A stretch of DNA of 64,000 bases from Sulfurimonas sp. (GTDB lineage: Bacteria; Campylobacterota; Campylobacteria; Campylobacterales; Sulfurimonadaceae): positions 1 to 64,000 of the forward strand of contig JALWTK010000061.1 of NCBI GenBank assembly GCA_027082875.1, read 5' to 3'. Positions 25,137 through 30,270 of this stretch are shown here, piece by piece (position 1 is the first letter of the stretch; every line of letters begins with the position of its first letter). Position numbers and translations under genes: made by a program. The notes under the pieces were generated by a model. That model saw only the letters and a list, made by a program, of their open reading frames with translations, made no database searches and was not told the DNA's origin.

Positions 25137-25595
25137 ATGAAAACTTTTTTACTAATTACTCTGATATCAGCACTTTTTACAGGATGTTCAAGCTCAAATG
25201 CCTTTTCTCAGTTTAGCCTTACTCCAGAACAGTCCAAAAGTGAAAATAGTATTTTAAGCTCTAAAATTCATTTTCAAAACAAAACTGTAGGCACTGTAAG
25301 TGCAGTCTACCTTAATCAAGTACTTCCTAAAATATATAATGAAAATGAATGGTTCTATGTTTCTATGTATACTAAAGATAGCGAAAAGGATGTAAAGTTC
25401 TTTCTCAATGGAGAAAAAGCACTAAATGTCAAAAAGCTACAAGTAGAAAATAAATTTTCTCATCTCCTCTCTTCAGTAGAAGAGTGGAAAACATACTATC
25501 TTGTGGAGTTTAAGCAGCTTGGTAATACTTTAAGTTTTATAGTTAAGAATAGTAATGCCAGTTCAGCCCCTCTTATATATAAAAAAGAGGACTAA
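25137..25595 (+). CDS. Hypothetical lipoprotein
   Basis: Lipobox LFTGCSSS. Confidence 0.65.
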   Translation: MKTFLLITLISALFTGCSSSNAFSQFSLTPEQSKSENSILSSKIHFQNKTVGTVSAVYLNQVLPKIYNENEWFYVSMYTKDSEKDVKFFLNGEKALNVKKLQVENKFSHLLSSVEEWKTYYLVEFKQLGNTLSFIVKNSNASSAPLIYKKED

Positions 25596-25876
25596 AGCGA
25601 ACGGAGGAGGGTGCTTAGTATAACGGTCACTACTTGAAGACCTACTATAAGTACTAAAGGTGCAAGGTCAAGTCCGTTGTAGTCAGTTCTCATAAATCTT
25701 CTTATAAAGCCATAAGCTGGAGCAGTTATACGGTGTAAAAATTGAACCACAGGATTGTAAGGATCTGGGTTTACAAAACTTAGGAGTGCTTGGATAATAA
25801 GTACCCAGATATAAACGCCAATAAGGCTAATAAAAATACTACCGATTCCTTGAGTTATTTCTATAAGTGCTTGCAT
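25592..25876 (-). CDS. YggT family membrane protein
   Basis: ALLSFVNPDPYNPVVQFLHRITAPAYGFIRRFM...GLDLAPLVLIVGLQ. Confidence 0.9.
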   Translation of the reverse strand: MQALIEITQGIGSIFISLIGVYIWVLIIQALLSFVNPDPYNPVVQFLHRITAPAYGFIRRFMRTDYNGLDLAPLVLIVGLQVVTVILSTLLRSL

Positions 25877-27150
25877 TATTTTACAATCTCCCCAATATAA
25901 TTTTTAAGATGCTGATATATCTCAGCGATATCTGGACCCTCTGTCGCGTTTGTTAAAAGTAAACGCAGGGCTCTCATATAAGACTCTTCTTCTAAACTAG
26001 ACTCTTTCATAGTGTAGTTTTTAAATGCAGTATACTCCTCGAAGTAGGGTGCATCTTTAATAACACTAGCGAGTGTTGCACACTCTTTTTGGAATATTTC
26101 TGGAATATTTCTCTCTGTAAATATAAGAGCAATTTTCTCTTTGAGCTCTTTTGTAGTAGATACTTCATCTAAGTAAACACGAGCAAGTGCTCCTATCTCT
26201 GCATCTGCAAAACCTACATATCTAGAAAGCTCTTTTGCATCAAGTGATTTTAGATGGGCTCGATTTAGCTCTTTAAGCAGATCTATATCAAACACTACAG
26301 AACTCTTTGATATTTTACTTAAGTCTAGAAATTCTATAGCTTCTTCTAAAGAAAAAATTTCTTTAGAGACTTTATTTCCGATTGATACTAAATAATTTAA
26401 AATTGCCTCAGGAAGAAATCCCTCTTTGAGTAACTCTTTGATACTTGGAGCGTTCTCAAGGTTCTTCATAGGTGGTAGGTGAGCATACTCTACTTGTTTT
26501 GCATACTCTAGAGCTAATCGCACATGCTGCTGCTTAGCAGACTCTTCTAAAAACTCCTCAGATTGGATGACAAGAGAGATGTCGCTAAGCATATCATCAA
26601 CAGCCGTAGCAAAGGTATATGTCGGTGTTTTATCTTGGTTAAGAATGACAAAGCTATCTACACTATCAGGAGAGAAACGTTGCTCACCTAATACTTTATC
26701 CTCTATCACTGTAGCTCTATTTGGCCGTGCTATACGAATACGAAATGGATTAGTATTGTCTATGATTAGCTCAGCGGGGAGGTTTCTACAAGCATCATCG
26801 TAACTATACTCTTTGCCTGCTGCTTTTGCCTCTTCGCGTTTGTTATCTAACCAGTTGTCTGAACAAAAACAGCTAAATGCCTTTCTCTCATGTACAAGTT
26901 GGAGTGCCATAGCAGAGTGAAAACGCACATTTTGACTCTGATGGATGACTTGAGAGCCATGCACCCCAAAAAGTGCAAGAAGATCTAAAATCTCATCATC
27001 CATCTTCTCTATGTTTTTCTCTTTATCCATATCTTCTATACGGATAATAAAATCCTCTTTTCTCTGCTTAGAGACTATATAGTTATATAGAGAAATACGA
27101 AGAGTATCTAGTTGTAAATCCTGAGTAGGACTAACTGTAAATCTTAACAT
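25876..27150 (-). CDS. Glutamyl-tRNA synthetase paralog with degenerate active-site motifs (predicted pseudoenzyme)
   Basis: GluRS-like along its full length (SPT..., RIEDMDKEKNIEKMDDEIL, FCCFC-like FSCFCSDNW, TYTFATAVDDMLSDISLVI, GFLPEAILNYL). HIGH is replaced by QLDT, RGEDH by QSEEF, and the KMSKS segment is missing (AHLPPMKNLENAPSIKELL). Confidence 0.85.
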   Translation of the reverse strand: MLRFTVSPTQDLQLDTLRISLYNYIVSKQRKEDFIIRIEDMDKEKNIEKMDDEILDLLALFGVHGSQVIHQSQNVRFHSAMALQLVHERKAFSCFCSDNWLDNKREEAKAAGKEYSYDDACRNLPAELIIDNTNPFRIRIARPNRATVIEDKVLGEQRFSPDSVDSFVILNQDKTPTYTFATAVDDMLSDISLVIQSEEFLEESAKQQHVRLALEYAKQVEYAHLPPMKNLENAPSIKELLKEGFLPEAILNYLVSIGNKVSKEIFSLEEAIEFLDLSKISKSSVVFDIDLLKELNRAHLKSLDAKELSRYVGFADAEIGALARVYLDEVSTTKELKEKIALIFTERNIPEIFQKECATLASVIKDAPYFEEYTAFKNYTMKESSLEEESYMRALRLLLTNATEGPDIAEIYQHLKNYIGEIVK

Positions 27151-27159
27151 TAAACTTCC

Positions 27160-29409
27160 TTATTGTAACTTCTGTGCAAGAAGTTGATTGACTATTTTTG
27201 GGTTTGCTTTGCCATCTGTGGCTTTGAGAACTTGTCCAACAAAGAAACCTAGTAGCTTTTTATTTCCCGCTTTGAACTTCTCAACATTATCTGGGTTTTT
27301 CTCCATTACTTCATCGATAATCTTCCCAATAATTTCAGGGTCACTAATCTGTACAAGTCCCTTACTCTCTACTATCTCTTCTGGGTTGGCTCCGGAGTTT
27401 ACCATCTCTTCAAAAACCTGTTTTGCGATTTTGTTAGAGATAGTAGTATCATCTACCATTTTTATAAGCTCTGCAATCTGCTGAGGAGTAAACTTTAACT
27501 CCTCTTTTGTATGCTGTTTCATCTCACGTGCTACTTCATTTGTGATGATATTTGCTAGATTCGTAGGACTGTTCAGGACAGCAAGTGCCTCTTCAAAAAA
27601 TGCTGAGAGATCCTCATCACGAGCGAGTGTGTTAGCTACTTCCCCATTAAGCTTGAGTCCCTCTTTGTATCTAGTAAAGAGCTTCTCTTGTTCTGATGTC
27701 ATTGGCACTACTTCACCATCGATCTGTACTTTTTTCTCTTTAGCCTCTGGCTTTGGTGGAGTAGGTTTTGTCTTTTTACCCCATGAGTCTTTAAGTCCTA
27801 CTATCTTGTTATAGACTGGTTTCTCATCTGTGTAGTCGATAGGGTCAGCAAAAAAGTACCCCTGTCTCTCAAACTGAAATCTCTCATCAGGTCTTTCTTG
27901 AACTACAGCAGGCTCAATAAGTGCATCTTTTATAACTTGTAAAGAGTTAGGGTTAAGATCTTCTATCCCCTCTGGCATCTCAGAAGAGTAGAGTCTATCG
28001 TAGAGTCGTACTTCTACCTTTTTCGCCTCATCTGCGCTCACCCAATGGATTGCACTTTTCACTTTTATGCCACTTGTGTCCGAACCACTTTTAGAAGTAG
28101 GGTAGTACTCTGCTTTTATCTCTATAACCTTTCCATCACTGTCTTTGATAATCTCTTTACAAGCAATGATATACCCGTGCTTGAGTCGTACTGGTTGCTC
28201 TGGTGTAAGACGGAAGTAGCCTTTAGGCGGATTCTCTTCAAAATCATCGCGTTCTATATAAATTTCACGAGAGAAAGGTAGTTTACGTGATCCCTCTTTA
28301 GGAACATCATCAGGATAGTAAGAGGCATTAAGCTCTTCGCTTCCTTCGTAGTTCTCTATAGTAATTTTGAGAGGATCAATCACACACATAACACGAGGTA
28401 CTTTAGGGTTTAAATCAGCTCTTATAGTAAACTCAAGTTGTGCAACATCCACCATAGAGTTTGCTTTGGCAATACCTACTTGATCACAAAAAGTGACTAT
28501 AGACTCAGGTGTATAACCCTTTCTGCGTAATCCTGCAATCGTAGGTAAACGTGGATCATCCCAGCCATTTACATACTTTCCTTCAACCAGCTCTAAAAGC
28601 TTGCGTTTACTCATCACTGTATAGTTTATCCCAAGACGAGCAAACTCATGTTGGTATGGGCGAGGGGGCTCAAGCTCTAATGTATCTAAGACCCAGTTAT
28701 AGATATCACGGTTGTTTTCAAACTCTAATGTACAGATGGAATGAGAGACACCCTCTATATAGTCAGAAAGACAGTGTGCGAAGTCATACATAGGGTAGAT
28801 GCACCACTCATTTCCCGTTCTAAAGTGCTCAGCATGGCGAATTCGGTACATAAGAGGATCTCGCATCTTCATATTTGCTGCAGACATATCTATCTTTGCA
28901 CGAAGTACATGCTCTCCATCTTGAAACTCACCTTTTCTCATACGCTCAAACATATCAAGGTTTTCTTCTACTGTTCTGCTTGCATACTTACTACGTTTAC
29001 CAGCTTCAGTAACAGTACCACGAAGTTCTCTCATCTCCTCTTCATCAACACTATCAACATAGGCTTTACCCATTTTGATAAGTTGCATAGCATACTTATG
29101 AATTTGAGCGAAGTAGTCAGAAGTAAAACGAACATTACCTTCCCACTCATAGCCTAACCATGTCACGGCATCTTTGAGTGCTTCAACGTATTTTGTATCT
29201 TCTTTTGTTGGGTTTGTATCATCCATTCTGAGATTACAGTGACCATTGTAGTCACGAGCAATACCAAAGTTAATAAAGATAGACTTTGCATGTCCAATAT
29301 GTGGAAATCCATTTGGTTCAGGAGGAAATCTTGTTACTATTTCTTTGCTCTTTCCTGATTGTAAATCTTTTTCGACTATTGTTTGTAGAAAATTTTTGCT
29401 CTCTTTCAT
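27160..29409 (-). CDS. glnS: Glutaminyl-tRNA synthetase with C-terminal YqeY/GatB-tail domain
   Basis: PPEPNGFPHIGHAKSI; VMSKRKL; C-terminal ~180 aa MTSEQEKLFTRYKEGLKLNGEVANTLARDEDLSAFFEEAL...NPEEIVESKGLVQISDPEIIGKIIDEVMEKNPDNVEKFKAGNKKLLGFFVGQVLKATDGKANPKIVNQLLAQKL. Confidence 0.93.
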   Translation of the reverse strand: MKESKNFLQTIVEKDLQSGKSKEIVTRFPPEPNGFPHIGHAKSIFINFGIARDYNGHCNLRMDDTNPTKEDTKYVEALKDAVTWLGYEWEGNVRFTSDYFAQIHKYAMQLIKMGKAYVDSVDEEEMRELRGTVTEAGKRSKYASRTVEENLDMFERMRKGEFQDGEHVLRAKIDMSAANMKMRDPLMYRIRHAEHFRTGNEWCIYPMYDFAHCLSDYIEGVSHSICTLEFENNRDIYNWVLDTLELEPPRPYQHEFARLGINYTVMSKRKLLELVEGKYVNGWDDPRLPTIAGLRRKGYTPESIVTFCDQVGIAKANSMVDVAQLEFTIRADLNPKVPRVMCVIDPLKITIENYEGSEELNASYYPDDVPKEGSRKLPFSREIYIERDDFEENPPKGYFRLTPEQPVRLKHGYIIACKEIIKDSDGKVIEIKAEYYPTSKSGSDTSGIKVKSAIHWVSADEAKKVEVRLYDRLYSSEMPEGIEDLNPNSLQVIKDALIEPAVVQERPDERFQFERQGYFFADPIDYTDEKPVYNKIVGLKDSWGKKTKPTPPKPEAKEKKVQIDGEVVPMTSEQEKLFTRYKEGLKLNGEVANTLARDEDLSAFFEEALAVLNSPTNLANIITNEVAREMKQHTKEELKFTPQQIAELIKMVDDTTISNKIAKQVFEEMVNSGANPEEIVESKGLVQISDPEIIGKIIDEVMEKNPDNVEKFKAGNKKLLGFFVGQVLKATDGKANPKIVNQLLAQKLQ

Positions 29410-29558: not shown

Positions 29559-29633
29559 TGGTGACCCCGAGGAGAATTGAACTCCTGTAACATGGATGAA
29601 AACCATGGATCCTAACCGCTAGACGACGGGGCC
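29559..29633 (-). tRNA. tRNA-Glu (anticodon TTC), CCA encoded
   Basis: Minus strand GGCCCCGTCGTCTAGCGGTTAGGATCCATGGTTTTCATCCATGTTACAGGAGTTCAATTCTCCTCGGGGTCACCA folds as a cloverleaf; anticodon stem CATGG/CCATG, loop TTTTCAT. Confidence 0.95.
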
Positions 29634-29727: not shown

Positions 29728-30270
29728 TTAGTCGTAGAAACTACGTAGTGCTCTAATGATTACAGCATTTTTAGAGATACTTTCTGCTTTTGCATTTTCA
29801 TTTACAGTGTCATAGATATCTAAAGGTAGAGAGATAGAGAAAGTTTTTGTCTCTACTTTTTTCTTTTTAGCGATCATTGCTGTTACACCTGTAAGTAGCT
29901 CGATAATTTTCTTTGTATCTATAGGCTTTTGGATGAAACTGTTCACACCAACTTCGATAGATTCAGAGATTTTTTCAATATCATTACTTGCAGAGATAAC
30001 AATGATAATTTGAGCAGGGTTGATCTCACGAATCTTTCGAGAAAGTTCAATACCGTCCATTCCTGACATAATGATGTCTACAAAAACTACATCTGGTTTA
30101 TTATCAAGATATACTTTTAAAGCACTCTCTCCATCAAAGCAAGACTCAACACTAGAAAAGAAGTTCTTGAATGTCGAACTTAAAAGCTCATTAGTTACCT
30201 TCTCATCTTCAACTACCATAGCTGAAAGTTTTTTTGTTTGTTCTGTAAGTTGAATTAGATCTACACTCAT
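29728..30270 (-). CDS. Response regulator: CheY-like receiver + C-terminal ribbon-helix-helix domain
   Basis: Receiver VVEDEKV...PDVVFVDIIMSGMDGIEL...VISAS...FIQKPID; C-term ETKTFSISLPLDIYDTVNENAKAESISKNAVIIRALRSFYD (RHH pattern). Confidence 0.85.
   Translation of the reverse strand: MSVDLIQLTEQTKKLSAMVVEDEKVTNELLSSTFKNFFSSVESCFDGESALKVYLDNKPDVVFVDIIMSGMDGIELSRKIREINPAQIIIVISASNDIEKISESIEVGVNSFIQKPIDTKKIIELLTGVTAMIAKKKKVETKTFSISLPLDIYDTVNENAKAESISKNAVIIRALRSFYD

Follow-up and report, generated by a model that had tools for sequence, protein, structure and literature searches.

Why would a bacterium keep a complete GluRS-like gene that has lost the motifs expected of such a synthetase? The question is raised by an open reading frame in the window, by which we mean the whole stretch of Sulfurimonas DNA analysed here (64,000 nucleotides). 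A preliminary description of this DNA had suggested that the frame may be a former tRNA-Gln-charging GluRS2, released from its duty by GlnRS and repurposed. We examined the frame, its neighbours and its orthologs in the genus and class, and find that GluRS2 has lost its catalytic motifs repeatedly where GlnRS is present, while its reading frame has been kept under purifying selection.

An undisrupted GluRS2 ortholog beside glnS

The features of the locus are as follows.

25592..25876, minus strand: yggT, whose ATG overlaps the gltX2 stop codon (TAATG)
25876..27150, minus strand: gltX2, an eroded GluRS2 ortholog of 424 amino acids, catalytic motifs lost and frame intact
26443..26469, minus strand: site of the KMSKR loop (about codons 228-236), with MKNLENAPSI for IILNNEGKKMSKRDDASSV
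26533..26565, minus strand: site of RGEDHxSNTPK (codons 196-206), which reads QSEEFLEESAK
26788..26871, minus strand: zinc-domain motif CxCx20Yx3C (residues 94-121), retained
27097..27135, minus strand: site of the HIGH motif (codons 6-18), VSPTQDLQLDTLR versus PSPTGDMHIGNLR in intact relatives
27160..29409, minus strand: glnS, encoding GlnRS with a C-terminal GatB/YqeY domain, HIGH and MSKRK intact (NF011291, 1205 bits)
29559..29633, minus strand: tRNA-Glu(TTC), upstream of glnS
29728..30270, minus strand: response-regulator-like gene, whose counterpart lies directly upstream of gltX2 in the GlnRS-lacking genomes G030 and G232

The window gltX2 runs from ATG to TAA without interruption across 424 codons and is GluRS-like along its full length (PF00749, E 2e-43), as the preliminary description had claimed with exact coordinates. 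Its score against TIGR00464 (gltX_bact) is 284.4 bits, just below the curated equivalog cut-off of 289.95. It is not a GluQRS (YadB), for which it scores 120 bits against a cut-off of 276.7, and it has a C-terminal domain. All the altered motif strings first reported for this frame (SPTQDLQLDTLR, RIEDMD, VIQSEEFLEESAKQQ and HLPPMKNLENAPSIKELL) are present, and comparison with intact relatives bears out the loss of HIGH, RGEDH and KMSKR: HxGN of the HIGH-type motif has become QLDT, RGEDH has become QSEEF, and the KMSKR loop is gone entirely, about 8 residues being deleted relative to intact GluRS2. An assembly or sequencing artefact is ruled out by relatives at 54-79% identity, which have the same erosion with open frames.

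The gene lies straight after glnS, as had been stated, and a gap of 9 bp separates the two. Relatives that lack GlnRS have a response regulator, then gltX2, yggT and further genes, followed by homologues of mobB and fbp (named by their sequence resemblance to window ORFs); in the window, glnS together with the tRNA-Glu gene sits between the response regulator and gltX2. Many genomes have glnS next to gltX2, in one orientation or the other. Nearly all members of families f1, f4, f7 and f10 show an overlap of 1-4 nt or similar between the gltX2 stop and the yggT start, whether the copy is eroded or intact, which suggests translational coupling. A GluRS2 tree built with the motif columns removed tracks family structure, and eroded copies fall beside intact ones of the same family or genus. 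This grouping and the common gltX2-yggT junction establish the frame as a GluRS2 ortholog.

The preliminary description had also called for a search of the genome for a second intact gltX and for gatCAB. Both gatA and gatB were found, and a GluRS1 is encoded on another contig, C14, where it is cut by the contig end and has SPTGYLHIGGLR, RGDDH and KKLSKRD intact. Among the 40 genomes checked, GatA exceeded its cut-off in 40 and AsnRS in none; GatCAB is thus presumably still required for Asn-tRNA(Asn). One genome that is 99% complete (G040) has a single PF00749 match, so that GluRS1 is seemingly missing, probably because of an assembly gap.

Motif loss follows GlnRS across the class

Erosion is not confined to the window genome and recurs across the class. 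A gltX2 ortholog is present in 111 of 121 genomes of the genus, all with open frames; among those of good quality it is present in 71 of 73, with no internal stops. GlnRS occurs in 78 of the 121, and GlnRS with a GatB/YqeY domain is patchy in the class (22 of 58 sampled genera). Where GlnRS is lacking, all three motifs are found in 29 of 32 genomes of the genus, and they are intact in 22 of 22 genomes from other genera. Where GlnRS is carried, the gene is eroded in 68 of 70 genomes of the genus and in 38 of 40 from other genera, all three motifs being found in 2/70 and 2/40, respectively. These counts took in full-enough GluRS2 copies. A Pagel-type test of correlated evolution on the tree gave a likelihood ratio of 55.8 (p ~ 2e-11). 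With erosion treated as irreversible, the full tree requires 20 independent erosions; collapsing nodes below 0.9 lowers the count to 13, and collapsing those below 0.95 lowers it to 10.

The order of events can be read from the exceptions. Five genomes carry GlnRS together with intact or near-intact motifs (G041, G106, G393, G289 and G331), consistent with a recent arrival of GlnRS, and no complete genome without GlnRS has a fully eroded copy. GlnRS therefore came first and erosion followed, so that the proposed release by GlnRS holds class-wide and over 10-20 independent events. Fully eroded copies occur without GlnRS in two genomes: G018, where the gene starts 20 bp from a contig end at the place where close relatives carry glnS, and G029, which is 79% complete. 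We also note G081, 99% complete and with no GlnRS found, whose only GluRS2 (L113) has KMSKQ for KMSKR.

The losses in eroded copies strike ATP-site residues, and HIGH, RGEDH, KMSKR and their neighbours have gone. In-frame deletions of differing length, most commonly 8 to 11 residues, have taken out the KMSKR loop. Also missing are several lysines conserved in the C-terminal domain and, in part, R404. Retention is 85-100% for R3, R37 and D40 and 84/76% for hydrophobic core positions; R139, the DDM stretch and mostly E39 persist as well, and R196, which we take by homology to be the glutamate side-chain contact, is retained in only about half. Loss is heavier at conserved Lys/Arg sites than at others, and net charge drops from about -9 in intact to -18 in eroded copies, which makes strong tRNA binding doubtful. 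At position 264 (intact GluRS2 numbering, L065), 51 of 55 intact copies have Leu and none has Ser, and Ser appears there in several separate eroded lineages; this change may represent compensation for, or repair of, packing after loss of the loop. The zinc-domain motif CxCx20Yx3C, as defined in PMC4381286, is present in 64 of 66 eroded copies of the genus and in only 15 of 34 outside it.

With HIGH, RGEDH and KMSKR lost, the eroded protein is, judging from its sequence, almost certainly no longer able to activate glutamate with ATP, and it would have lost aminoacylation activity. Annotations that name such genes glutamate-tRNA ligase are probably wrong as to function.

Selection on the eroded protein and what it implies

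We next consider whether the eroded gene is decaying. Between close pairs of eroded copies (dS 0.16-0.7), dN/dS is 0.11-0.32, with a median of 0.20 over all usable pairs; for intact copies the close-pair range is 0.03-0.09 and the median 0.085. The window gltX2 gives 0.12-0.20 against its nearest relatives, and glnS, as a control in the genomes of the eroded pairs, 0.05-0.12. The N-terminal domain alone, the former catalytic half, gives 0.04-0.31 in eroded copies. Selection is thus relaxed 2-3 times relative to intact copies, yet still present. These values rule out neutral decay. Nor does the window gene look like a pseudogene: its dN/dS is far from 1, and the frame is open both there and in relatives.

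An AF2 model of the window protein (pLDDT 88, pTM 0.84) predicts a complete GluRS fold, with TM scores up to 0.85 against solved GluRS structures; the zinc-domain stretch is modeled less confidently (pLDDT 55-70). The protein thus has the features of a regulatory aaRS paralog of the HisZ kind, in that the adenylation motifs are gone and a predicted fold has been kept under selection.

The gene is nevertheless dispensable in some lineages. It is missing from five GlnRS-carrying genomes, all of which still have GatA, a finding that weakens the idea of an essential, obligatory GatCAB subunit. In G351 (L247), yggT stands straight after glnS and gltX2 has been cleanly lost. A true gltX2 pseudogene, the only disrupted copy, with TAG and TAA inside, occurs in G177 (L216, G177:C1:932403-935777), a GlnRS-carrying genome of another family that still has GatA and in which the pseudogene lies about 20 kb from glnS. 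The repurposing put forward in the preliminary description accordingly stands as regards retention, with dN/dS well below 1; the new role itself we infer from selection, and it is not needed universally, since gltX2 has been lost or pseudogenised in some lineages.

Could the frame be kept open for something other than a folded, non-catalytic protein? It might serve mainly as a translational coupler, in which ribosomes ending gltX2 restart on yggT, with the yggT ribosome-binding site lying within the conserved end GGNGAGATTGTAAAATGA. The stop/start overlap in nearly every genome of the four families agrees with this, as does the resemblance of the terminal IGEIVK codons to a Shine-Dalgarno sequence plus ATG. 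We nonetheless judge the idea improbable as the main reason, because dN/dS stays far below 1 along the whole protein, including its N-terminal half, the final codons show only mild constraint at third positions, and G351 manages with yggT after glnS. The mildness of that constraint also rules out a C-terminus conserved solely for the ribosome-binding site. Coupling to yggT probably helps to keep the frame open, but cannot explain constraint at the protein level.

A new kind of enzyme, one that works with a different cofactor or substrate in a glutamate pocket where R3, R37, E39 and D40 mostly persist, would account for the high retention of R3, R37 and D40 and for the clear constraint that still acts on the N-terminal domain. 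We think this quite unlikely, given that the class I fold has lost its ATP-binding signatures here and that R196 persists in only about half of the eroded copies.

It is very improbable that we have caught a decaying gene midway, with GlnRS recent in each lineage and the frame not yet gone. Erosion is indeed graded, with motifs partly preserved in G063, G069, G100 and G329, and five genomes have lost gltX2 while G177 holds a pseudogene. Against this stand the dN/dS values after erosion, the depth of the divergence (across the genus, most eroded copies share 55-65% identity with the window protein, with synonymous sites near saturation), and the fact that indels are in-frame and the frame is kept in nearly all GlnRS-carrying genomes of the genus. 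That GluRS2 still works with unusual motifs is scarcely credible on its sequence: the presence of GatCAB would in principle allow a Glu-tRNA(Gln) route, but KMSKR is wholly absent, the histidine, glycine and asparagine of HIGH are replaced, and erosion occurs only where GlnRS exists.

A probable displaced synthetase and its known counterparts

GluRS2 of Helicobacter makes Glu-tRNA(Gln), which GatCAB amidates. The explanation that we hold to be very likely is that GluRS2 was displaced in this role by an acquired GlnRS, then lost its catalytic motifs, and was retained as a folded, non-catalytic pseudo-synthetase under purifying selection. A glnS encoding the GlnRS/YqeY fusion would have been acquired and inserted just upstream of gltX2, and direct charging of tRNA(Gln) by GlnRS would have made the GluRS2 reaction unnecessary. 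That reaction would then probably have become harmful, because GluRS2 misacylates tRNA(Gln); HIGH, RGEDH and KMSKR would have been lost after GlnRS arrived, and the folded, eroded protein kept by selection. Counting against this explanation are the gene losses, the scarcity of the zinc motif in eroded copies outside the genus, the drop in charge and the two- to threefold relaxation of selection.

How might such a protein act? In the Gln-transamidosome of Thermotoga maritima, the zinc domain (pZBD) of GluRS2 contacts GatCAB (PMC4381286). Because this domain survives in the eroded protein, we tentatively suggest, by analogy, that it may dock either with GatCAB or with the GatB-like tail that GlnRS carries, and act as a scaffold or gate, directing tRNA(Gln) to GlnRS and GatCAB to Asp-tRNA(Asn). 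Among mechanisms for the eroded protein, docking appears to us the likeliest. A more specific version, which we regard as rather doubtful, is that eroded GluRS2 has become, in many independent conversions, a dedicated non-catalytic subunit of the new GlnRS (or of GatCAB), perhaps with its zinc domain on the YqeY tail.

These genomes amount to a natural experiment with at least ten repeats: an enzyme gained by transfer takes over from the resident route to Gln-tRNA(Gln), and the displaced synthetase becomes a selected pseudoenzyme. On this view GlnRS should be the enzyme that does the work in these bacteria, and a testable question follows, namely what role is left to a GluRS once it has lost the ability to charge tRNA. 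That GlnRS and GluRS2 occur together in epsilonproteobacteria was noted in 2014, with the inference that GlnRS was possibly non-functional, as GluRS2 was always present (PMC3927822); the erosion of GluRS2 argues against that inference and indicates the reverse. We found no report of GluRS2 erosion in the openly licensed papers searched.

Several known systems resemble the window gene in part. Helicobacter pylori has no GlnRS and an active, tRNA(Gln)-specific GluRS2 (PMC9976931), which shares the fold and domain order and is, like the window gene, an ortholog of the class gene beside yggT; it differs in the window gene's loss of HIGH, RGEDH and KMSKR. The T. maritima GluRS2 (PDB 3al0) matches the window model with a TM score of 0.79 by query length, and its zinc domain is retained in the window protein; unlike the latter, it is an active enzyme in a GlnRS-free pathway. 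GluQRS/YadB is likewise a GluRS paralog, but it has no anticodon domain and has kept the activation chemistry. A parallel in kind is HisZ, a non-adenylating HisRS paralog that was retained as a regulatory subunit of HisG (PMC9437257). HisZ has a class II fold and a known partner enzyme, whereas the window gltX2 represents an established enzyme that would have died catalytically after its replacement by another enzyme. Non-catalytic aaRS paralogs are thus already known (HisZ and others, PMC9437257), and it is the evolutionary pattern that is unusually clean and repeated here.
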